Virus record (IMG/VR): IMGVR_UViG_3300043467_001232
Location: 1 to 29,466 of that record
DNA: 29,466 bases
Strand: one strand, 5' to 3'
Origin: a virus
Of the stretch, positions 1-29,322 are shown one piece after another. The position numbers and the translations under genes are program-made. How positions within the stretch are numbered: the first letter of the stretch is position 1; each line of letters starts with the position of its first letter. The notes under the pieces were generated by a model, which searched no databases, was not told the DNA's origin, and saw only the letters and a list, made by a program, of their open reading frames with translations.

Positions 1-2668
1 TGGCACTTGCTCCTTGAAGGTTGGAAATAACAAGTCTGTAGTTATCGTAAGTTGAACTAAATACCGATGTTATGTTTGCTGTTGTAACACCAGAGAACGT
101 TCCGCTGGACAAATAAACAAGGCCAATATCTCCAGTTGTTGCAACCGTTCCTGATTTGTTAGGCAAAGTTAAAGTACGACTAGCAGTTAGGGTAGTGGGC
201 GTTAAAGTGACACCATAACTAGATGTACCACCAGCACGACCTTGAAGTTCAACTGCATCTTGAGTAGCACTAGAAGTTGCTCGTATGTTACCAATAACAT
301 CTAGTGAACGGTTGGGTGAAGTGAGTCCAATACCAACACGACCTGCGGCATCGATAACGAAGGGGGTTGAGTCTGTACTGGCCGAGTCCTCAACAAGAAA
401 AGAGTTACCTATACCAGTATTGGTAATACGCATAGCGGTACCACTAGATGTCGCAACAACTAAAGATGCCGTATTTAATGTTGTTCCATCAAATGTGAGG
501 TTTGCACTACCTGCTGCAGCGTTTGAACCATCTTTGTAAACAACTTGATTAGCGGAACCAGCAACAGGTCCAGTCGCGCCCTGACTGCCAGTTGCACCTT
601 GGCTTCCAGTAGCGCCTTGTGGTCCAGTGAAACCTTGTGTTCCTTGGGGTCCAGTTTCGCCCTGAGTACCTTGTGGTCCTTGAGTTCCTTGCGGTCCAGT
701 AAACCCTTGAGTACCCTGAGGTCCTTGTGCACCCGTGAATCCTTGTGGACCTTGTGGACCCGTGTCTCCCTGTGTACCTTGCGGACCCTGTGCGCCCGTG
801 AATCCTTGCGCACCCTGAGCACCTTGGGGACCTGTGAAACCCTGGACCCCCTGAGGTCCCTGGGAGCCTGTTTCGCCTTGACTGCCAGTAAAACCCTGTG
901 CGCCCTGAACGCCCTGCGGACCAGTGAATCCTTGGGTGCCCTGTGGACCAGTTTCACCTTGTGGACCCGTCGCCCCCTGAGCACCTTGAGGACCTGTAAA
1001 ACCTTGCGCACCCTGCGAACCCTGAGAGCCTTGTGGGCCAGTAAAACCCTGAGCACCCTGACTCCCCTGTGCGCCTTGCGAACCTTGAGCACCAACATCG
1101 CCCGTACGAGCAAAAGTAATAATTACATCTTCACCATTAGAGAACGACGAAGCGGAACCAGAAACATATCCACACGCAACTTCAAAATAACCAGTTTCCT
1201 CAGTGACAGCAGAAATCGTAAACAACGCAAAATCTGTTGAGTCCGCTTTATTAGAAATTCTAAAGTGGCCCTTGATAGTGCTTGTTGAGTCATCAATGGT
1301 TCTTAAGAATGACTGAATGTCCGTTGATGAATCATCTTGGTCATCAATGAGTAGTTTTGTTGCTGTCGTAATGTTGGAAGCGTCAAACTTTAGTTTCCCT
1401 GCACCGGGGTCGGTTAGGGTTGTCCCTGTATCGAACGTGTAGTCGAGTGTGATGCCACCAAAGTTCCCTTGGATACCTTGGGGGCCTGTTTCGCCTTGGG
1501 AGCCTGTAGCGCCTTGTGGGCCGGTGAATCCTTGTGCACCTTCTGCGCCTTGGGGTCCAGTGAAACCTTGTGTTCCTTGAGGGCCTTGCGAGCCAGTAAA
1601 TCCTTGCGCCCCCTGTGCCCCTTGTGCTCCTGTATCACCTTGAGCACCTTGCGCTCCTTGGGGGCCTGTGAAGCCTTGTGCCCCAGTGAAGCCTTGAGTG
1701 CCTTGTGGTCCAGTGGCGCCTTGCGAGCCAGTAAATCCTTGAGTTCCCTGCGGACCAGTGTCGCCCTGTGGACCTTGCGGACCCGTTGCTCCTTGACTAC
1801 CTTGAGGTCCAGTGAAGCCTTGAGTGCCTTGGGGGCCTTGTGCACCAGTAAAACCTTGAGCACCTTGAGGACCAGTAGCGCCTTGTGCTCCTTCTGCTCC
1901 CTGTGAACCAGCAGTACCTTGTGGACCTGTGGCACCTTGACTACCAGTTGCCCCTTGCGCCCCAGTGAAACCTTGAGCGCCAGCAGAGCCCTGCGGTCCA
2001 GTGGAACCCTGTGGGCCAATATCTCCCTGTGGTCCTTGGGAACCAATAGCACCCTGTGCGCCAGTTGCACCTTGAGCGCCAGTTGAGCCTGTAGCACCCG
2101 TGGCACCTTGAGGACCAGTAGCGCCCTGTGCGCCAGTTGAGCCTTGTGCGCCAACATCTCCTTGCGGACCCTGACTGCCAGTAGCACCCTGACTACCAGC
2201 GGAACCCTGTGGCCCTTGTGAGCCCGTTGCGCCCTGAGAACCAGTGAAGCCTTGCGGACCAGTAGAACCCTGTGCACCTTGAGGACCCGTCACCGTACTA
2301 GCCGCACCCTCAGCGCCCTGCGAGCCAGTTGCGCCCTGCGGACCAGTAACACCAACAACAGTAGAGGGAACAAACTTTGCCCCATCAAACCTCAAAACTT
2401 GGTCAGCGGCAGCGCCAGAAGTATCTACCTCAATGCCATCAATAAATAAAATCGGAACCTTGAGAGTGTCGTCAGTTTTGAGGACATTCGCTGCATCACG
2501 ATATAGGTTTACGTCACCCGCAGCAGAACCATCACCCCAAACGAGTCGTCCACCGCCCTGAACCTGCAATCTTGCGTAAGTTTCGCCATCAAGAAAAATT
2601 GTTAAACCATCAGAGCCAGCAGAAGATAACTGCTTGATTGTGATTGGTGTTATAAATTTTTGAGCCAT
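1..2668 (-). CDS. Collagen-like tail fibre protein, 3' end cut by window
   Basis: An open frame begins with ATG at 2668 ([13 protein letters not shown]) and stays open to base 1, giving 889 visible residues; the C-terminus lies outside the window. The order is: N-terminal attachment region (about 1-108), first Gly-X-Y block (about 109-400, interrupted once by AASTVT), a globular spacer of about 120 residues (401-522), a second Gly-X-Y block (523-701), then a non-collagen tail with a VGIGLTSP fibre repeat (about 745-792), an RTLTLP...GTVATTG segment and the start of a probable receptor-binding domain ([10 protein letters not shown] onward). Triplets are mostly [12 protein letters not shown] and GAT, typical of phage collagen-like fibres that trimerise as a triple helix. 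The N-terminus MAQKF resembles that of the adjacent 528-residue fibre, suggesting a common attachment mode. The SD is weak (GAGGT lies very close to ATG). Role in host binding is inferred from family and position. Confidence 0.88.
566..1102 (-). repeat. Collagen-like Gly-X-Y block 2
   Basis: About 60 uninterrupted Gly-X-Y triplets are encoded here, with Gln or Thr usual at the third position. At DNA level the 9-base periodicity also creates long spurious open frames on both strands, rich in Thr/Leu/Ser or Arg/Lys/Val, which should not be called as genes. Confidence 0.9.
1467..2344 (-). repeat. Collagen-like Gly-X-Y block 1
   Basis: About 97 Gly-X-Y triplets are encoded, dominated by [12 protein letters not shown] and GFT. 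There is one break in the triplet phase near the start (AASTVT, around 2300). It is separated from block 2 by a globular spacer of about 120 residues. Confidence 0.9.
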
Positions 2669-20829: not shown

Positions 20830-22353
20830 TCAGACTACCGAAGCCGTAAGGCTTGATTTAATAATATCAACTTGAATAGAGTCGCCGATTCCAGTAACAC
20901 GGAGTCCAACACGAGCCGTCACTGTTCCATTAACCAAATTGGCGAGTGGGTTAATGCTTGAATCGCATATGACCGTGTATCCATAGTCGATTTGACGTCC
21001 ATTATTGTCAAATGCTGGATAAATGGCGCCAATTGTGCGCAATTCTTCCATAATTGACTGAAGACGCTGCTTGATTGAAACAAACAGTGCATTTCGTGCA
21101 TCGATTGGTCGGAACAAGACGTCTTCAAGACTGCGGTACGATTCAACAACAACATGGTTCAAAACGTCCTGTGACGTAATGTAACGGAAGTTTGGCAAGT
21201 CTCCAGAACATGAACGTGCACCATAAATACGGATAGTGTTGTTAATAATACGAATCGCATTAATTGATTCGGCATCAAGACTGTCACCCAAAGTTGAACC
21301 AATAGCAAATTCAATACCATTAACAAATCGTGCGGTACTTGTTACACCAGCACCAGGCTGGTGGGGTCCAACGTTATTGTGTGCTCGTGCTCGTGCGCCA
21401 GCAGCATAGCCGACCGGCGGAATTAATCTATTGACTCCGAGCGTACCTGTCGGTACGTAAACCCATGGGGCAAAAAATGCTACATGTTCAGCATTGTCGC
21501 TTCCTTGGATTCCTTGAGTGATAGAGATGAGATCGTCGTAGTCTCCGGATGCCGAGGCGTCGTTGGGGTCTGTTCCTGCGTCTGCGTAGAGGAAGGCTAG
21601 ACGGTTCATTGAGTTTGCGTGGGCGATGAGTTCGTCGTTAATCCCTGTTGACTCTGGGCAGGCGACGACGCCTGTTCCGTATGAGTCAAGGAACAAGTCC
21701 AATGCGTCGACGAGGTCGGAGTCGGCGACTGCCGTTCCGGCGGTACCATCGACGTCCGAACTGTCACCAAAATATTTCTCAGCGGCTGCACTTGCTAACT
21801 CAGTTGTTTCTTTTCCGGCAACAACTTGTGCGGTGCACAAAAGGCTAGCAACGGGATGAACGTTAATTTTTCCGGCGATCTGCTGGTTGGTCGTACAGTT
21901 TCCTGTAGACATTATTAGTGTTCCGCCCTTGTATATTTTGACTACTGCAGTGCTGGCTGCGGTGCCTGCTGTAACAACTGCTGACAATCTTTCAGCACCG
22001 CCAGCGGCAGATGACCATGTTCCTCCACCAACTGCGATAAGGGTAATGACTGTGGCCGAATTCGAGTTGTTTTTAAGGGAAAGTCGTCCTGCTACCGAAT
22101 CTGAAGCGAGAGCGCGAGCGACATAGCATTGCGAGCCGCCTTCTTCGAAGAAAGTTTCAACGGTCGAATACAGGTAGTTCCCATTGACGTATCCACCATA
22201 ATGGAGTTCGAATTGTTCCATTCCGGTGATTAGTGTGGCCACGTCGGTGGGTCCGCGGAAGGCTTTTCCTACAAAAAATGCTTGTGATGACTCGCGTACG
22301 GTTGTCGTTGTGGGACCTGTTCGTACAGCGGTACTAATGTTAATTCCGGGCAT
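20830..22353 (-). CDS. Tail sheath protein (507 aa)
   Basis: The N-terminus (PGINISTAVRTGPTTTTVRE, SSQAFFVGKAFRGPTDVATL, FELHYGGYVNGNYLYSTVET, GGSQCYVARAL) is typical of contractile tail sheath proteins. The conserved C-terminal half includes APWVYVPTG, PPVGYAAGARARAHN, GVHQPGAG-like NVGPHQPGAG, RSCSGDLPNFRYI and RPIDARNALFVSIKQRLQSI, ending in the handshake domain (GLRVTGIGDSIQVDII). The sheath contracts to drive the tube through the host envelope. The SD AGGAAGG is strong. Its gene is preceded by a 112-base gap and is likely highly expressed. The call is very confident and sets the myovirus type. Confidence 0.95.
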   Translation of the reverse strand: MPGINISTAVRTGPTTTTVRESSQAFFVGKAFRGPTDVATLITGMEQFELHYGGYVNGNYLYSTVETFFEEGGSQCYVARALASDSVAGRLSLKNNSNSATVITLIAVGGGTWSSAAGGAERLSAVVTAGTAASTAVVKIYKGGTLIMSTGNCTTNQQIAGKINVHPVASLLCTAQVVAGKETTELASAAAEKYFGDSSDVDGTAGTAVADSDLVDALDLFLDSYGTGVVACPESTGINDELIAHANSMNRLAFLYADAGTDPNDASASGDYDDLISITQGIQGSDNAEHVAFFAPWVYVPTGTLGVNRLIPPVGYAAGARARAHNNVGPHQPGAGVTSTARFVNGIEFAIGSTLGDSLDAESINAIRIINNTIRIYGARSCSGDLPNFRYITSQDVLNHVVVESYRSLEDVLFRPIDARNALFVSIKQRLQSIMEELRTIGAIYPAFDNNGRQIDYGYTVICDSSINPLANLVNGTVTARVGLRVTGIGDSIQVDIIKSSLTASVV

Positions 22354-22923: not shown

Positions 22924-23526
22924 CTAGTCTATGATGTCAACACCCAAACCACTTAGGTTGAAGGTAATATCAACCTCGTCGAGGTTTGCAATATCTGCCC
23001 GAGAGACAACTTCGTTCATGTAAATTGTATATCCCAAATATGCTCCAGCGAGAACCCTATCACCTTTAAGGAGGGTTAAATCAGAATACTCTTCACTTAA
23101 AGACGTTTGTTCAATCTCTGCCTTGAATGTCTGGCGGGGGTCTACAAATTTCATCGAGGGGTAGTCAAGTAAGGATGAACGAAGAATGGCGGACAGCCTG
23201 TCACGCATGAGTGTTGTTTCTTCAGAACCTTCTGTTCGAACCCAAACATAAGTTCGCATATTGTAAGCAACGCGATATTCGGGGTCTGAGCCAATAAAGC
23301 CCAGACGATCAAAATATGATGTGGAAATAGCAACCGTGATAATGGTGGGCCATTCGTCCATTGCTAATGGTTCGTAGGTAAGAAATTTGATTGGCGTTGG
23401 GAGTGTTGCATCATCGAGACCCCAGCCATTTCGGTATGCCACTATCCTAGTTGGAATATCGTAAGATAAATAGTTGTTTACAAATGATTTTGCAAAATGT
23501 GATCCGTGCATTAGTGGGGCGGGCAT
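22924..23526 (-). CDS. Putative tail terminator / tail completion protein (200 aa)
   Basis: It follows the gpG/gpS-like completion gene and precedes the sheath, the position of tail terminator proteins (lambda gpU / T4 gp15 type). The sequence (MPAPLMHGSHFAKSFVNNYL ... WPTIITVAISTSYFDRLGFI ... YNMRTYVWVRTEGSEETTLM RDRL) shows an alpha/beta pattern with a segment MRTYVWVR followed by helix-forming RDRLSAILRSSLL, as in terminator folds. The C-terminus (DEVDITFNLSGLGVDIID) is beta-rich. SD AAGGGA. The function is assigned mainly from gene order. Confidence 0.6.
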   Translation of the reverse strand: MPAPLMHGSHFAKSFVNNYLSYDIPTRIVAYRNGWGLDDATLPTPIKFLTYEPLAMDEWPTIITVAISTSYFDRLGFIGSDPEYRVAYNMRTYVWVRTEGSEETTLMRDRLSAILRSSLLDYPSMKFVDPRQTFKAEIEQTSLSEEYSDLTLLKGDRVLAGAYLGYTIYMNEVVSRADIANLDEVDITFNLSGLGVDIID

Positions 23527-23528
23527 AT

Positions 23529-24002
23529 TTATCCCTTAATTCCAAAAGTTTCGCCATCAGCAATATATTTCACAGCCCACTTGCCCCATTTATTGGCAAC
23601 ATTATTGGGTTCAAAAATGATTGGGCGTTTAGGCATTTTTGTTGTTCCGTATTGATGGAATTTGGCGTATTCAATATTAGTGCCAAAATACGCTTCGTCA
23701 TCTTTGATGTCGTTTGGTGCACCATGAAGACTTCTGACGCTGTTAAATAGTTGCCCGCTACGAATCAAAATAGGCCCTGCGGAACCTCTCCATGCTGCGT
23801 ACTTTGGACTTAAAGGTTTCCATCCGCCATAATTTCCGCCCTCTGTTTTGAAGTTATTCGACCATTCTTTTTCTAGGTCGCTGCGTATATCATTGAATAT
23901 TGGTCGGAATGATTTCATGCGTCTTTGCATGTCGTCAATTCTGTCAAAACCTTGAGGATTTTGAAGCCTAGAAGTAATTTCGACAACTAATGGCCTGGCC
24001 AT
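23529..24002 (-). CDS. Phage virion morphogenesis / tail completion protein (Mu gpG / P2 gpS-like)
   Basis: The segments KEWSNNFKTEGGNYGGWKPL, SPKYAAWRGS, ILIRSGQLFNSV, YFGTNIEYAKFHQYGTTKMP and RPIIFEP form the hallmark series of the Mu gpG / P2 gpS / HK97 gp10 family. These proteins complete the neck or tail so heads can join tails. The length of 157 residues is usual. The ATG overlaps the connector stop (TAATG), indicating translational coupling, and the next gene is a putative terminator. This is a firm call. Confidence 0.85.
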   Translation of the reverse strand: MARPLVVEITSRLQNPQGFDRIDDMQRRMKSFRPIFNDIRSDLEKEWSNNFKTEGGNYGGWKPLSPKYAAWRGSAGPILIRSGQLFNSVRSLHGAPNDIKDDEAYFGTNIEYAKFHQYGTTKMPKRPIIFEPNNVANKWGKWAVKYIADGETFGIKG

Positions 24003-24862
24003 TATGCAGCCCTCACTCGGCGATAACGCTTAACGGTCATTAATTCTGAATCCATGAAACCTGTTTGCAATGGTGCGACATTGCGAGTATTGAGGTCTTT
24101 AACACCAACGACATCGTCGTGCATGTTTTGCATTTCTCGTACTGCGGCACGGAGAATCAGCAGTTTAAATATTGCTATTTCAGTACCATCGATGCCTGCC
24201 TCGTAGTCGATTGTGACAACGTCGTTAGCAAATCCACGATAAAGATCAATGCCAAAACGACGAATCACATAGTCGCTTCCTGTTGCTATGGCGCTGCCGC
24301 CTACTGTCATTGCACCAATTGATGCTGGCATGTCAATAACGGAGAATGTATTTGTTGTTACTTCGGTTATTTCACGAGCAACTACGTTGTACAGAATCGG
24401 TACCATGCTTTTGATGGTCACTCTTTGGCCGCGTGTAAATTTATGACTACTTGCGGTGTAAGTAACTTTTGTGCCTACTTGTGAGACTGCCGTGACTGTC
24501 GCCGAACGTTCCATTGCTTCACTCATGTATTGTCCAGAGACTGACCAGTTTTTGATGAATACGCTGTTGACTTTTACGATTGGGGAGTTTCTGACGCCGA
24601 TTGTTGATGGCGGTTGCGAGTAGGAGATTGGTGACATGGTTGTGTCTAGGGATGTGTTGTAAAAGAATGATGATGTGGGCATTCCGACGTAGTCTGAGGG
24701 GATGACGTATTCTTCTACGAAGTTTTGGACTTCTATTGGGCGTCGTAAAAAGGACTCCAATTCACTTTGAAGTCCAGCCAACACAATTTCAGCCGCATCT
24801 TGTTGGCGTAGTGAGAAGCGGATGTCCATATATGTGGTTAAATCATTGACACTAACCAGCAT
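24002..24862 (-). CDS. Head-tail connector (gp6-like) with inserted beta module
   Basis: The N-terminal helical part (LVSVNDLTTYMDIRFSL, AAEIVLAGLQSELESFLRR) and the C-terminal helices (AIFKLLILRAAVREMQNMHD) match gp6-type head-tail adaptors that bind below the portal. Residues about 119-194 (TVTAVSQVGTKVTYTASSHK, FTRGQRVTIKSMVPILYN, VTTNTFSVIDMP) are a small inserted beta domain of a type seen in several phage structural proteins. The family is usually shorter without it. It starts the neck-tail gene run. SD GGTGAG. The connector role is inferred from fold-like pattern and position. Confidence 0.72.
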   Translation of the reverse strand: MLVSVNDLTTYMDIRFSLRQQDAAEIVLAGLQSELESFLRRPIEVQNFVEEYVIPSDYVGMPTSSFFYNTSLDTTMSPISYSQPPSTIGVRNSPIVKVNSVFIKNWSVSGQYMSEAMERSATVTAVSQVGTKVTYTASSHKFTRGQRVTIKSMVPILYNVVAREITEVTTNTFSVIDMPASIGAMTVGGSAIATGSDYVIRRFGIDLYRGFANDVVTIDYEAGIDGTEIAIFKLLILRAAVREMQNMHDDVVGVKDLNTRNVAPLQTGFMDSELMTVKRYRRVRAA

Positions 24863-24897: not shown

Positions 24898-25089
24898 TCA
24901 GCGTCCGCCACTACGGATAATGTCACGAAGACGAGCAGTCGGATTCACACCACGACCAGCACGACGACGACGACGCTGAAAAAGATTTCGTGCAGCACGA
25001 CGAATTCTTCCAGGAGTACGTCCAGTGTCAATATCTGCTGTTGTGCCAGGCTGAACCTTAATCCAACCGATGTTACGAATGTTGCGCAT
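24898..25089 (-). CDS. Arginine-rich small basic protein (63 aa)
   Basis: Seventeen of 63 residues are Arg, including a run RRRRR (encoded by a CGT repeat on the complementary strand), with only three acidic residues; the protein must be strongly basic and could bind nucleic acid or the capsid interior. The likely start is the ATG at 25089 (MRNIRNIGWIKVQPG): AGGA lies 8 bases before it, while an in-frame ATG at 25098 is too close to the SD. It lies between the IbrB-like gene and the connector. No family is recognised. Possible roles are DNA condensation or head completion. Confidence 0.7.
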   Translation of the reverse strand: MRNIRNIGWIKVQPGTTADIDTGRTPGRIRRAARNLFQRRRRRAGRGVNPTARLRDIIRSGGR

Positions 25090-25132
25090 AATAACCATCC
25101 TTTATGTATGTGCAGTTTTTATTCTACCACGA

Positions 25133-25684
25133 TTATCTATCAGGATTTGGCGGCGCCTCTGCAACAATGGGCATTTTATCCACAGTCCCTGGAGGTGCCT
25201 CAACCGGAACCCACGCCCGAGAATAATTATGTTCTGATATTTTTCGTTGTTTGATGATTGTTGGGTTCATCATCAGTTCCAACTCATCAAATTTCATACA
25301 AAAACGCTTCACAAAATCTTTTTCATCAAACTTACGGCTTTTCTTCAAAAGTCGGACAATAGATGAAAGTTGTTTCGCAACCATATTCCCACGACCACGG
25401 TTCATTTGAACATGGAGAACCATGGCATCAAGTTCATCGCAATCCACATACGTCACAGGCAAACCATCAGGGAATAAGGCTGACAGATTTTTGTTTCCTG
25501 CAATTAGTTTATATCTCTGACTACCATCAATAATTGAATTATCTTCTTTACGAACCACCAAAGGAGACATAATCCCAAAAGAAGACAAAGAATCAGCCAA
25601 AACAAGCAAATCAGGACGCAAAATATAAACAGTATTCCAAGAAGGAACACTCAAATCACCAATAGCCACAAAATCAATCTTCAT
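25133..25684 (-). CDS. ParB/sulfiredoxin-fold protein, IbrB-like (183 aa)
   Basis: The motifs are SLSSFGIMSPLVVRKEDNSI, IIDGSQRYKLIAG (residues 51-63) and HVQMNRGRGNMVAKQLS (from residue 91), matching the ParB N-terminal domain in IbrB-type proteins. The chosen start (ATG at 25684, MKIDFVAIG) has GAGGA upstream and overlaps the PP-loop gene by 11 bases; an upstream ATG at 25783 would add a poor, overlapping leucine-rich stretch and is rejected. The tight overlap with an IbrA-like gene repeats the IbrA-IbrB pairing known from Escherichia coli. The C-terminus is Pro-rich. Its biochemical activity is unknown; nuclease or nucleotide-binding activity is possible for this fold. Confidence 0.8.
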   Translation of the reverse strand: MKIDFVAIGDLSVPSWNTVYILRPDLLVLADSLSSFGIMSPLVVRKEDNSIIDGSQRYKLIAGNKNLSALFPDGLPVTYVDCDELDAMVLHVQMNRGRGNMVAKQLSSIVRLLKKSRKFDEKDFVKRFCMKFDELELMMNPTIIKQRKISEHNYSRAWVPVEAPPGTVDKMPIVAEAPPNPDR

Positions 25685-26822
25685 AAAAAACAACATCCTC
25701 ATCTTGTTTAGCAGCAGCAACACGCAACGCATGCGCCCTAGTACCAGGACCAACCGGACTAACCGACATCCCAGACAACTCATTCAAAAATATATTCCTA
25801 ATAAGCCACTCAATTGGATAAGAATACGGGTCCTTCGCATTCTTCTTCCTAAACTCGGCAGAAAAAGACAAAGCACGACTCCTCTTCGTCTCACCAATCA
25901 TGAAAGTATCAATCGCCCGCATGACACCATTCCAACCCTCGGCAGCAAACATCGCAATAACTTTCTCGACATCATATTCAGACCACCAACGACGCTGAGC
26001 ATCAATCTCAGGAAAACAGTCCCACAAGCGATCATAAAACTCGGGCTCCGTAGCAACTAAATCACCAATCCTACGAATAGCAATAGAGTGCAACGGAATA
26101 CCCACACGAGTATTAGAACCAGTCAAAGCCGCAACATCGTAATACTCGCAATAATCAGCACCGTGCTCCTCGTTGAGGAATTTAAAAACGTCATCCGTCT
26201 GCCAATCGTAAATCACCTTAGCCATCTTAAGAGGGATTCCCTTTTTGCTCTTATATGGCGTAACAATATAGTTTTCATGCAGTTTTTGAACACAAGAACG
26301 ATATCTAATCATTGACTCAGAAGCACGAACACCAGTCAAGAAAGCAACATTACCTTTCTTGCCCTGCATGGTGTAGTAATCAATATGGTTAGTCATTGGT
26401 GTTGAATGATCTAAGCCAAAATGGTATCCAGTAATTACGTCATCAGGCAAAGGCCTACAGGTGCGTCCTTCTTTGATGCGTTTTTCACCCCAAATCATAA
26501 TGGATTGACGTCGACCCAACACCCATACTTCGGTTCCATAGGGCAAGCAATACCATTCAAAATCTACCCAGTCATAATTCTTGATTTTATTGATGTAATC
26601 AAGAACAAATGGGCTAACCATTTCTTCATCTCGGAAAATAACTTTGACAGGCCCCAGGCCACGTTCTTCATGAATTTCTTTAGCAAGATATAAAACTGCG
26701 CTTGAGTCTTTACCACCAGAGAATTGAACGCAGACAGTGTCAAAAGTGTCGTATACGTGCCTAATTCTTTGACGGGCCGCTTCTACGCATGAGATATCCA
26801 GAAACATGCGCTGACGCGTCAT
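25674..26822 (-). CDS. PP-loop PAPS-reductase-like protein, IbrA/DUF3440 type (382 aa)
   Basis: A PP-loop SGGKDSS (residues 35-41) identifies an ATP-pyrophosphatase of the PAPS reductase superfamily. Later motifs TGVRASESMIRYRSC, VIYDWQTDDVFKFLN, CEYYDVAALTGSNTRVGIPL and PEFYDRLWDCFPE match IbrA-type (DUF3440) proteins. The KRTECG-L-H-type catalytic cysteine tail of true PAPS reductases is absent, so assimilatory sulfate reduction is unlikely. The partner gene is an overlapping IbrB-like ParB protein. In E. coli IbrA/IbrB affect expression of eib genes; in phages their role is open, and nucleic-acid or nucleotide modification is one possibility. SD AGGGGA. Confidence 0.82.
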   Translation of the reverse strand: MTRQRMFLDISCVEAARQRIRHVYDTFDTVCVQFSGGKDSSAVLYLAKEIHEERGLGPVKVIFRDEEMVSPFVLDYINKIKNYDWVDFEWYCLPYGTEVWVLGRRQSIMIWGEKRIKEGRTCRPLPDDVITGYHFGLDHSTPMTNHIDYYTMQGKKGNVAFLTGVRASESMIRYRSCVQKLHENYIVTPYKSKKGIPLKMAKVIYDWQTDDVFKFLNEEHGADYCEYYDVAALTGSNTRVGIPLHSIAIRRIGDLVATEPEFYDRLWDCFPEIDAQRRWWSEYDVEKVIAMFAAEGWNGVMRAIDTFMIGETKRSRALSFSAEFRKKNAKDPYSYPIEWLIRNIFLNELSGMSVSPVGPGTRAHALRVAAAKQDEDVVFYED

Positions 26823-26831
26823 GATGTTCCC

Positions 26832-27248
26832 CTATTTTTGCAGTTTAGTAACATTGGTCTCAACAGTATCAGTTGCGTCGACCTTTGTCCAGCCTTGTTG
26901 TAAAAAACTTTCGTTCAAAGTTTTAAGTTGCGCCATACCACGCGAACCATTCCTCATCAAATAACCGTGACCGCCAGTCACCTCGCAAGTCATACTGCAA
27001 ATTTTCTCGTACTTACGGACAACCAAATCCATACCTTCACTATTATGCGGATTAGAAGGACTGTAGTAATAACGCAACCCACCAAATTTTTCTTTAATTT
27101 GAAAAATAGTGTACTGAGGATCAAGTAAAGAAAGTTCCTTATCGCAAATTGACACAAGTTTCCACCAACCCTCATCACATGAAATACGAACGCCGTACTC
27201 TGGGTTAATGCGCGACAATACCGGCTGCAAATAATCGGGATATTCCAT
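26832..27248 (-). CDS. Hypothetical protein with QIKEKFGGLRYY motif (138 aa)
   Basis: CDEGWWKLVSICDKEL followed by FQIKEKFGGLRYYYS is a recognisable motif of a widespread phage and bacterial family of unknown function. Members usually carry a later Cys pair of the form CEVCG; here that reads CEVTGGHGYLMRNG, so the second cysteine is missing and a zinc site may be lost. It sits just upstream of the PP-loop gene, with a good SD (AGGA). Function is unknown. Confidence 0.75.
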   Translation of the reverse strand: MEYPDYLQPVLSRINPEYGVRISCDEGWWKLVSICDKELSLLDPQYTIFQIKEKFGGLRYYYSPSNPHNSEGMDLVVRKYEKICSMTCEVTGGHGYLMRNGSRGMAQLKTLNESFLQQGWTKVDATDTVETNVTKLQK

Positions 27249-27249
27249 A

Positions 27250-27471
27250 TTAATCCTTTTTACGAAGGTCTAATTTCAAAACAAGTATCCCATCTTCAAA
27301 CGTATACTCACAGTCACCAATCATGGCAAAATCTTGAAAATCAACTTTTGCTTGATCAACAAATTGGGCTCGCTCTGATCCAGCAACTGGCGGCAGGGGA
27401 CGTTTCTTAACTGCCTCAGCACGTTCCCTAAAACGTGCCAGCATCTCATCAATTTTTAGTTCCATTATCAT
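27250..27471 (-). CDS. Small conserved phage protein (73 aa)
   Basis: The protein has an amphipathic N-terminal helix (MLARFRERAEAVKKRPLPPV), then AQFVDQAKVDFQDFAMIGDC and a beta-rich end (YTFEDGILVLKLDLRKKD). This resembles small proteins found in actinophage accessory regions, of unknown function. Its start overlaps the end of the preceding gene; the SD is weak (AAGAAG), and an ATG two codons on (27465) is about equally good. It has no recognised catalytic motif. Confidence 0.62.
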   Translation of the reverse strand: MIMELKIDEMLARFRERAEAVKKRPLPPVAGSERAQFVDQAKVDFQDFAMIGDCEYTFEDGILVLKLDLRKKD

Positions 27472-27664
27472 ATTCTTCTTTAGTCACAAAACGAACGAGT
27501 GTTTCCCTATCTCTAGGAACAGGGTCACCACCAGGCCACACCTGTTCCATGGGGGTCTCCAAAACATACCAAGTACGAGAATCAGTTTCAATAATTTTGT
27601 ACTTACGTATTCTCTCTACCGTTGATTCATAACGAATTCTATCGATGTCTTCATTATGCGCCAT
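27449..27664 (-). CDS. Hypothetical protein (71 aa)
   Basis: The protein (MAHNEDIDRIRYESTVERI ... KIIETDSRTWYVLETPMEQV ... VTKEEYDNGTKN) is charged, with a central beta-prone segment and no recognised family. A usable SD (GAGGA, spacing about 9) precedes the ATG, and both its ends overlap neighbouring genes, supporting that it is translated as part of the small-gene run. No function can be given. Confidence 0.6.
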   Translation of the reverse strand: MAHNEDIDRIRYESTVERIRKYKIIETDSRTWYVLETPMEQVWPGGDPVPRDRETLVRFVTKEEYDNGTKN

Positions 27665-27950
27665 CTTCTATTTCCTCATACAGTGAATTGAATCTACCAT
27701 CATTACAGGGATAGAAAACATTATTATCAGTCTTTACAACATGATCGCCTAAACGAATAAAAAACTCGCCATCCACAGTTTTCATTGAAATAACCAATTC
27801 GGGCCGATTTGGGTCATTGTCTTTAGCAAGCACAGTTAGTTCGCCACTGCACCAATCAGCAACTTCACGCTGATTCAAAGGGACAAAACGCACAGCCTCA
27901 ACATCAGGACCGTTCGTGCGATAGCGCCTAACAACGGGAGTATCAATCAT
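27654..27950 (-). CDS. PGDYG-like small phage protein (98 aa)
   Basis: The pattern VEAVRFVPLNQREVADWCSG early, and GDHVVKTDNNVFYPCNDGRF then NSLYEEIE at the end, matches a frequent phage family (sometimes called PGDYG-like: GDW/GDY, FYPC, F...YE). Its function is unknown. The ATG overlaps the preceding stop by 8 bases, so translation is coupled; the SD is weak (AAGAAG). It lies in the accessory small-gene cluster. Confidence 0.72.
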   Translation of the reverse strand: MIDTPVVRRYRTNGPDVEAVRFVPLNQREVADWCSGELTVLAKDNDPNRPELVISMKTVDGEFFIRLGDHVVKTDNNVFYPCNDGRFNSLYEEIEDGA

Positions 27951-28104
27951 TATTCTTCTTTAAAGTTTCCAAAATCTCTGCTAAAAGAAATTTGATTTCT
28001 TTCAATGTTTCATTTGATTCACGAGCAGGCTGGCCAGCAAGATAGGCATTGCGCTGCGATTCTAGGCGAGCATTTTCTTTAATTGCTGATGCATTGGGTT
28101 CCAT
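27943..28104 (-). CDS. Small helical protein (53 aa)
   Basis: The ATG at 28104 (MEPNASAIKENARLESQRN) has a near-perfect SD, GGAGGA, 6 bases upstream, which decides the start. A longer frame from 28143 would overlap the tRNA gene and is rejected. The C-terminal half (NETLKEIKFLLAEILETLKK) is a leucine-rich amphipathic helix that may be coiled coil. No family is recognised. Confidence 0.68.
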   Translation of the reverse strand: MEPNASAIKENARLESQRNAYLAGQPARESNETLKEIKFLLAEILETLKKNND

Positions 28105-28128
28105 GTCTATTCCTCCATTGTTTGTTTT

Positions 28129-28204
28129 TGGCTGGAGAGGCAAGGGTCGAACTTGCGACGCGCGGATTAACAGTCCGCTGTTCTGCCAACTGAACTACTC
28201 TCCA
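28129..28204 (-). tRNA. tRNA-Asn (anticodon GTT), CCA encoded
   Basis: A full cloverleaf is present: 7-bp acceptor (TGGAGAG/CTCTCCA), D stem GTTC/GAAC, anticodon stem GCGGA/TCCGC with loop CTGTTAA, 5-base variable loop, T stem GCAAG/CTTGC with loop TTCGACC, discriminator G and genomic CCA. All stems pair fully, so it is probably functional. It lies between two small protein genes in the accessory cassette and is the only tRNA I found in the window. Confidence 0.95.
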
Positions 28205-28261
28205 TTGGTATGTGCTGAAAGATTATCAGCAATAGATTGTTCGTGCACAGATTACTTTATT

Positions 28262-28492
28262 TTATCGGCGTTCTTGCTCATATCTGAGGAGTAATTCGTT
28301 GCGTTCGTTATTGAAATCTAACAAATCTTCTATGGAGTAAATGAACTGTGCTAATTCATCACAAAGTTTATTTGACGCTTCAATTTTTTCTTCGAGAGAC
28401 TTAATGCGGGATCGCAAGTATATTGTTTCATCTTCCAGTGTGTACATTTCTTTTTGTACAGACCTCAGAATATATTCAGCATCACTAGACAT
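28262..28492 (-). CDS. Coiled-coil protein (76 aa)
   Basis: The ATG at 28492 (MSSDAEYILRSVQKEMYTL) has GGAG 6 bases upstream; an in-frame ATG at 28504 has no SD and is less likely. The protein is almost entirely charged helix with heptads (YTLEDETIYLRSRIKSLEEK), a likely coiled coil. It has no recognised family and no catalytic motif. It sits between the ParB-domain gene and the tRNA. Confidence 0.68.
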   Translation of the reverse strand: MSSDAEYILRSVQKEMYTLEDETIYLRSRIKSLEEKIEASNKLCDELAQFIYSIEDLLDFNNERNELLLRYEQERR

Positions 28493-28530
28493 AAGATACT
28501 CCATTCTATTAATTTAACTGTATGCGATAT

Positions 28531-29322
28531 TTAAATTTCTGAATGGGCATCTATAAAAGAAATAAGTTTTTCTGACGTCGTACTGCCATCATATGCAGGT
28601 TCGTTTCTTATCCAACGAATAAAATCATACCAACGTCGCTGCTGGTCGGGATCATCAAAAACAATAGTGTATTGAACTACGGCACGAGGCGCTGCTTCAG
28701 GGGTGGCGACAGTACTCCCCTTGATGGCAATTTCGTTATGATCCATATCTCGCGGAGCAACAATCCTGCGCTCCCCCTCATCATCCTCACGAACTAAAGA
28801 TGACAAAATGGTTGCACCAAGGTCACTCAACGGTTGCAAAACTGGCGGTACATAGATGTTTCCATTAGAATCAGAGGTTGTGTGCGAGTTGTATTGGATT
28901 GACTCGTCCATGGCAGCCAATTCCATTTCGTCCCAACCTAAATCTGCCATTAGATCGGAATAATCGGAAATAATGTCATCTAGCATTTCGCTCACTAACT
29001 CTTGGTCGGAGTGACCGAGTTCATTGGTGCGGTTGTCGGTTAAAGCAAATGCGATTGCCCGGTTGACGTCAACTTCAAATGGGACGGCAGCGATGTGTGT
29101 CCATCCAAGTGTTTGTGCAGCCAACAATTGGTGGTTTCCTGCGATAACAGTTGAGGTGCCGTCACCATTGGGGCGAACTACAATTGGTTTCACTTGACCA
29201 AACTCCGCATATGAAGCCATAATTGAGTCAACGTTACCTTTACGAGGGTTCCCTGGCAGTGGGAGTAAGGTATTCACATCGACCATAAGAGACTGAAGCG
29301 ACGGATCAACTTTATGTTTCAT
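28531..29322 (-). CDS. ParB-domain protein (263 aa)
   Basis: The ParB N-terminal domain is clear: GNPRKGNVDSI (from residue 24), FGQVKPIVVRPNGDG, VIAGNHQLLAA (GxHxxxAA, residues 59-69) and ALTDNRTNELG (93-103). The C-terminal part (VVQYTIVFDDPDQQRRWYDF IRWIRN) is a phage-specific domain often attached to such ParB proteins. No helix-turn-helix for centromere binding is evident, so a plasmid-partition role is doubtful; phage relatives may act as nucleases or regulators. A good SD (GGAG) lies before the ATG. It is the second ParB-fold protein of the cassette. Confidence 0.82.
   Translation of the reverse strand: MKHKVDPSLQSLMVDVNTLLPLPGNPRKGNVDSIMASYAEFGQVKPIVVRPNGDGTSTVIAGNHQLLAAQTLGWTHIAAVPFEVDVNRAIAFALTDNRTNELGHSDQELVSEMLDDIISDYSDLMADLGWDEMELAAMDESIQYNSHTTSDSNGNIYVPPVLQPLSDLGATILSSLVREDDEGERRIVAPRDMDHNEIAIKGSTVATPEAAPRAVVQYTIVFDDPDQQRRWYDFIRWIRNEPAYDGSTTSEKLISFIDAHSEI

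Follow-up and report, generated by a model that had tools for sequence, protein, structure and literature searches.

What does a phage do with a PP-loop gene that is coupled to genes for ParB-like proteins? This question is raised by a virus fragment of 29,466 bp (IMG/VR record IMGVR_UViG_3300043467_001232), the whole of which was analysed and is called the window below. Its genes lie on the minus strand, and the genes for Neck1, tail sheath, tail tube and tail chaperone downstream of the locus in question identify the source as a contractile-tailed, myovirus-like phage. The neck and tail genes are preceded, as the initial annotation had stated, by genes for a PP-loop protein (PPL), for a ParB-fold protein overlapping it (ParB2) and, further upstream, for a second ParB-domain protein (ParB1) (Table 1). 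Comparison with related loci revealed that these three genes, in the order ParB1–PPL–ParB2, constitute a core unit which is real and widespread in phages.

PPL relatives were confirmed by tblastn in at least 566 IMG/VR stretches. We assembled 223 loci from IMG/VR and from phage, plasmid and genome matches, and dereplicated them at 88% identity for linkage counts. For these counts, L119 and four loci initially classed as phage-type (L088, L089, L092, L093) were transferred to the IbrA-type set, having grouped with IbrA in the tree described below. A lack of co-conservation of PPL and ParB2 in other phages had been named beforehand as an outcome that would refute the pair; ParB2 lies beside PPL at 58 of 60 phage-type loci (25/26 in the window's clade, 33/34 in the others). 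Among the nearest IMG/VR relatives with downstream DNA, an overlapping ParB2 gene follows PPL in 79 of 79, usually with an overlap of 10–22 bp, so that the pairing is not due to chance. A reciprocal search from ParB2, which covered close relatives only, found PPL adjacent in all 20 loci not ended by a contig edge. ParB1 is located upstream of PPL at 45 of 47 phage-type loci (15/17 in the window's clade, 30/30 in the others). It abuts or overlaps PPL in many relatives, and since it often overlaps the PPL start directly, the module is defined as ParB1–PPL–ParB2. IbrA-type loci have IbrB in 42 of 44 cases and a ParB1-like gene in only 2 of 43; among weak PP-loop relatives, 1 of 12 has a ParB neighbour. 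The ratio of non-synonymous to synonymous substitution rates between the window and its relative L005 is ~0.02 for PPL, ~0.05 for ParB2 and ~0.03 for ParB1, indicating that all three are maintained under strong purifying selection.

In the window the module is opened by ~1.7 kb of small open reading frames (ORFs) and a tRNA gene, an arrangement common to the closest relatives only. When 45 relatives were scanned, the tRNA-Asn gene was present only in the window, L003, L005 and L011; it was rejected as a module member, nearly all other loci being without a tRNA. Both the small ORFs and the tRNA gene are local insertions outside the module. From the cassette originally described, the second ParB gene thus stands as a core member, while the tRNA and the small proteins are a feature of near relatives. 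The 98-residue product of one inserted ORF (27654–27950) resembles the N-terminal portion of a phage ‘nucleotide pyrophosphohydrolase’ (phrog_4159) and several PHROGs of unknown function. Elsewhere, the module has terminase, RuvC, recombinase and primase genes as neighbours, and its position varies: before terminase, beside primase, or between recombination and neck genes. A ParA partner was not noticed among the recurrent neighbours, where no search was aimed at ParA. No ParB gene adjoins one PPL gene with 68% identity (L144, 6001–7152); its contig, assigned to Oxalobacteraceae by binning, is possibly rearranged or chimeric.

PPL scores 33.3 bits with PF01507 (cut-off 22.5) and matches phrog_2302 with E=9e-70. 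Its neighbours in sequence and structure are FAD synthase, CysD, CysH, TilS and TtuA/NcsA. The AlphaFold2 model (predicted local distance difference test, pLDDT, 88.9) resembles CysH (Foldseek E=1e-6), FAD synthase, CysD and TilS, chiefly in its PP-loop portion. The catalytic fold shared with CysH, CysD and FAD synthase comprises PPL residues ~10–260, whereas the extra helical C-terminal domain and the ParB partners set PPL apart. Also missing is the C-terminal catalytic Cys of CysH (ECGLH-type): the window PPL has no Cys past residue 269, in agreement with the initial annotation. Among 134 phage-type and 49 IbrA-type proteins, R19, SGGKDS (35–40), D65, E67, W111, R166, E169, R173, D206, W207, D211, Y228, R239 and P260 are invariant, as are, with few exceptions, G164 and P126. 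About 20 residues are conserved across both clades, including SGGKDS, GxRxxES..R and DW...D. No Cys is fixed in this set; C92 is conserved in 82% of the phage-type and 92% of the IbrA-type proteins, and C225 in 96% of the phage clade, its counterpart in IbrA being Asn. The fold, the motifs, the absent CysH Cys and the lack of any fixed Cys argue against reduction of phosphoadenosine phosphosulphate (PAPS) and against persulphide chemistry, and for an adenylating enzyme. Judged from its sequence, PPL is not a PAPS reductase, so that the second outcome named beforehand as refuting the original reading did not occur either; its invariant active site is of the AMP-forming type. The loop 171–182, which bears the fixed R173, is disordered in the model, and this suggests a loop that contacts substrate or partner. 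In L120 (3759–5861; also in L121 and L122), PPL is split at the conserved WYC-P motif by an intein-like insert (CVDGDTEV...HILTGN/C), resulting in a 700-residue ORF. Inteins prefer active-site motifs in important enzymes.

The ParB2 gene starts at ATG 25684, within the PPL gene, the 3' end of which it overlaps by 11 bp. A longer ORF from 25783 is unsupported because MKIDF is the start shared by the proteins of the relatives. ParB2 matches phrog_2159 (E=1e-21). Its ParB_N Pfam score is under the cut-off; the fold nevertheless matches CTP-binding ParB/Noc proteins (model pLDDT 86), and the helices that follow the nucleoside triphosphate (NTP) domain in ParB are kept. Its motifs are a DGxxR nucleotide site, NRxxG and a C-terminal YSxAW (YSRAW in the window), and the fixed residues include D53-G54-R57, N95 and, in the tail, W158. 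The YSxAW tail has low confidence when ParB2 is folded alone; the invariance of a motif within a tail that is flexible in isolation is typical of a partner-binding peptide, and we infer from the model that it binds a partner. ParB1 has a ParB_N domain above cut-off (32.3 bits versus 26.3), as the initial annotation had proposed, and matches phrog_723 (E=4e-37) and Noc/Spo0J. It carries GNH and DNR motifs and a conserved C-terminal domain.

Outside the window's clade, two transferase families, unrelated to each other, are tied to the module. A GNAT profile built from one phage protein gave 33 matches among 15,772 ORFs, all 33 inside a PPL/ParB2 or IbrA/IbrB operon. The GNAT gene follows ParB2 or separates it from PPL; at two-gene loci it separates IbrA from IbrB. 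Two Bacteroidales loci in which it precedes IbrA were added by a second profile. A small class-I methyltransferase (MTase; phrog_11826) was found at 14 loci, in all 14 within the operon. GNAT and MTase never co-occur (Fisher p=0.015, uncorrected for relatedness and from a table still holding the five IbrA-grouped loci named above). The tree requires a minimum of seven changes between the two states, some of them within sister pairs. This interchange of methyl- and acyltransferase suggests that either enzyme performs the last step on one common product. An HNH-like protein (CxxC...HSEDYS...CxxCH) accompanies both GNAT and MTase loci and is fused to GNAT in L137.

The relationship to IbrA and IbrB is one of homology. 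The hhalign probability is 99.9% both for PPL against a DUF3440-type IbrA (297 columns) and for ParB2 against IbrB (162 columns). DUF3440 itself (PF11922) is absent from the window PPL by Pfam search and is present in true IbrA relatives (5e-28 to 6e-55). A quick tree of 82 proteins splits phage-type PPL from the IbrA clade with a support of 100 in the SH-like approximate likelihood ratio test; its rooting is unsure because long branches meet at the root. These profiles and the tree place PPL in a clade that is sister to IbrA and lacks DUF3440. The IbrA/IbrB likeness initially claimed is therefore valid for the level of homology and not for IbrA proper. The systems have in common the invariant active-site residues, the adjacency of the two genes and a YSxAW-tailed ParB partner, and Proteobacteria carry the GNAT family of the phage operon between IbrA and IbrB. 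They differ in DUF3440, in Cys225 (Asn in IbrA), in their separate clades and in the addition of ParB1 to the phage module. We know of no chemistry established for IbrAB. E. coli K-12 has the pair ybdN (DUF3440) and ybdM (ParB-like), which matches IbrAB by description (PMC9068703). Microbacterium phage Hendrix (L087, 2619–6167) has a relative of PPL that matches DUF3440 over a short stretch; it is not accompanied by a ParB and lies in a glycosyltransferase–methyltransferase–acetyltransferase operon near four tRNA genes.

We tentatively favour the interpretation that the module encodes a three-subunit, nucleotide-dependent enzyme which modifies nucleic acid. PPL would bind ATP in the PP-loop and adenylate a nucleic-acid or nucleobase substrate with release of pyrophosphate, as FAD synthase, CysD and TilS do. 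ParB2 would dock on PPL, probably via its YSxAW tail. ParB2 and ParB1, each predicted to bind NTP as well as DNA, would present the target, like DpdB with DpdA or ParBc with CmoX/CmoY. In other phages, the MTase or GNAT acyltransferase of the same operon would complete the product. The likely benefit would be the shielding of phage DNA from host nucleases. DpdB is a ParB-like ATPase acting with DpdA (PMC12839542), and ParBc proteins are frequent beside CmoX/CmoY, where an AMP-forming ligase modifies phage DNA (PMC12783734). Both systems, to which DndB beside the PP-loop protein DndC can be added as a precedent (PMC10853773), resemble the module in coupling ATP-using DNA modification to a ParB-family partner; however, their chemistry is that of a tRNA-guanine transglycosylase or an ATP-dependent amide ligase, and neither has a PP-loop enzyme of the PAPS reductase type. 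The genomic context strengthens the earlier suggestion of a nucleotide or nucleic-acid substrate, short of proof. A more specific version appears possible but doubtful: an unrecognized pathway of DNA-base hypermodification, in which the AMP-forming PP-loop enzyme and two ParB-fold subunits would make the base and a swappable methyl- or acyltransferase would decorate it, chromosomal and plasmid IbrAB being a two-subunit relative.

Several points weigh against a nucleic-acid-modifying enzyme. To our knowledge, no phage bearing the module has had its nucleosides analysed. There is no PPL–ParB fusion among the 223 loci. Searches of 17 records from the window's clade (up to 156 kb, possibly incomplete) revealed neither GNAT nor MTase, so that the core functions there without either. 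The operon GNAT was rejected as a member of the Mom family (hhalign against Mu Mom, 0.2% probability), and GNAT and MTase could act on protein or RNA instead. Finally, E. coli IbrAB reportedly activates eib prophage genes (Sandt 2002, as cited in PMC7649339 and PMC6008420).

This last report leads to the explanation that survives best among the alternatives, which we nevertheless consider unlikely: a regulatory module whose ParB proteins would switch expression by binding to DNA of the phage or the host, PPL providing a small-molecule or adenylylation signal, with the adjacent late neck and tail operon as target in the window. Apart from the homology of PPL and ParB2 to IbrAB, it can draw on the retained ParB2 helices and on the regulation of ybdNM together with citrate genes in E. 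coli K-12 (PMC9068703). An invariant catalytic site, linked transferases that indicate chemistry and the inconstant genomic position of the module speak against it.

Modification of tRNA or other RNA by PPL, comparable to TilS, TtcA or TtuA and aiding phage translation or evasion of tRNA-targeting defences, seems quite improbable. TilS and TtuA/NcsA are among the fold neighbours, a tRNA-Asn gene lies within the window cassette, and the tRNA array of phage Hendrix, 4 kb from the related gene, includes tRNA-Asn; however, almost all other loci lack a tRNA, the neighbours are DNA packaging and recombination genes, and ParB folds are tied mainly to DNA. Hardly better placed is a conflict module, in which the ParB proteins would be NTP-regulated nucleases directed at host or rival DNA while PPL protects self DNA. 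Conflict systems are known to include ParB/Srx domains that act as nucleases or NTPases (PMC5512222), and the HNH-like gene often follows the module, but this gene is absent from the window's clade and nuclease activity of a ParB fold cannot be read from its sequence.

We give little credence to DNA phosphorothioation, with PPL as a DndC/SspD-like sulphur transferase and ParB2 and ParB1 as DndB-like proteins. It had been suggested for a prophage PAPS-like gene (PMC8092301), and Dnd likewise couples a protein with the PP-loop ATP pyrophosphatase fold, which DndC and BrxP/SspD of type 4 BREX also share with PPL, to a ParB-superfamily protein, DndB (PMC10853773). The matches of PPL to DndC, BrxP and SspD are weak, limited to the PP-loop and far under the model cut-offs (DndC model TIGR03183, 21.7 bits versus 290.4). 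In addition, only C92 and C225 are well conserved, so that the cysteines needed for a 4Fe-4S cluster or a persulphide/sulphur-transfer dyad are lacking, and cysteine desulphurase is not recurrent among the neighbours. DndD/DndE and SspB/C were not prominent among the recurrent neighbour clusters, which were not searched systematically for them. Least credible by far is an enhancement of host sulphur metabolism by PPL as a CysH PAPS reductase, a common annotation (PMC6145125, PMC10434257) in line with the PF01507 match: the catalytic Cys is missing, the C-terminal half is additional and helical, the invariant set differs and the ParB linkage is near-obligate.

The search for the same gene order in other phages, proposed at the outset, led to actinophages, where sets annotated as ParB, PAPS reductase and ParB match the module in their three families and in gene order. 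They are ~34–38% identical to the window proteins and lie before terminase, whereas the window module precedes neck genes; Laroyevirus and prophi79-1 have a small MTase, which the window lacks. Literature searches for a ParB–PAPS–ParB module or its chemistry turned up only annotations and CysH or DndC guesses, and none turned up deletion phenotypes or virion-DNA chemistry for cluster B3 phages. At the other end of the window (2–2668), a long minus-strand ORF with collagen-like GxQG repeats runs past the contig end and probably encodes a tail fibre.

Table 1. Features of the window, followed by loci elsewhere (L numbers) that carry module-associated genes.
Feature	Position or locus	Strand	Remarks
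ParB1	28531-29322	minus	263 aa; ParB_N, phrog_723
Insertion between ParB1 and PPL	26832-28504	minus	six small ORFs and tRNA
Small ORF 1	26832-27248	minus	
Small ORF 2	27250-27471	minus	
Small ORF 3	27449-27664	minus	
Small ORF 4	27654-27950	minus	
Small ORF 5	27943-28104	minus	
Small ORF 6	28262-28504	minus	
tRNA-Asn(gtt)	28129-28204	minus	inside insertion
PPL	25674-26822	minus	382 aa; PF01507, phrog_2302
ParB2	25133-25684	minus	183 aa; IbrB-like ParB fold; phrog_2159
Basic ORF, gap between ParB2 and neck genes	24898-25098	minus	66 aa; common in many members of the window's clade; no match in Pfam and PHROG searches
Unlabelled flanking gene	24002-24862	minus	
Neck1/tail completion	23529-24002	minus	
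phrog_5178 gene	22924-23526	minus	
Tail sheath	20830-22353	minus	
GNAT	L123-L131, L133-L135, L137, L139, L097, L098, L104, L109		
GNAT, IbrAB loci	L159-L165, L168-L171, L175, L177, L183		
GNAT, further loci	L205, L208		
MTase	L082, L083, L085, L095, L096, L099-L101, L136, L148-L151, L158		
HNH-like zinc protein	L125 6327-6728; L137 6599-7381; L150 8201-8653; others		beside module
Actinophage sets	Arthrobacter Laroyevirus gp5-7; Mycobacterium cluster B3 gp1/gp4/gp5; M. abscessus prophi79-1 gp92-97		

GenBank annotations of actinophages already contain the individual components and their bare order. Three points appear to be new: the delimitation of a three-gene core from IbrAB, the rejection of a CysH function, and the association with either GNAT or MTase, which exclude each other and alternate. 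PP-loop genes of this kind are regularly described as CysH ‘auxiliary metabolic genes’, which according to the evidence is wrong for the PPL clade, and the module as a whole is usually mislabelled as sulphur metabolism plus plasmid partition. The presence of ParB1 and the exclusive linkage to a GNAT or an MTase yield a concrete, testable enzymatic hypothesis for the phage module as well as for IbrAB.

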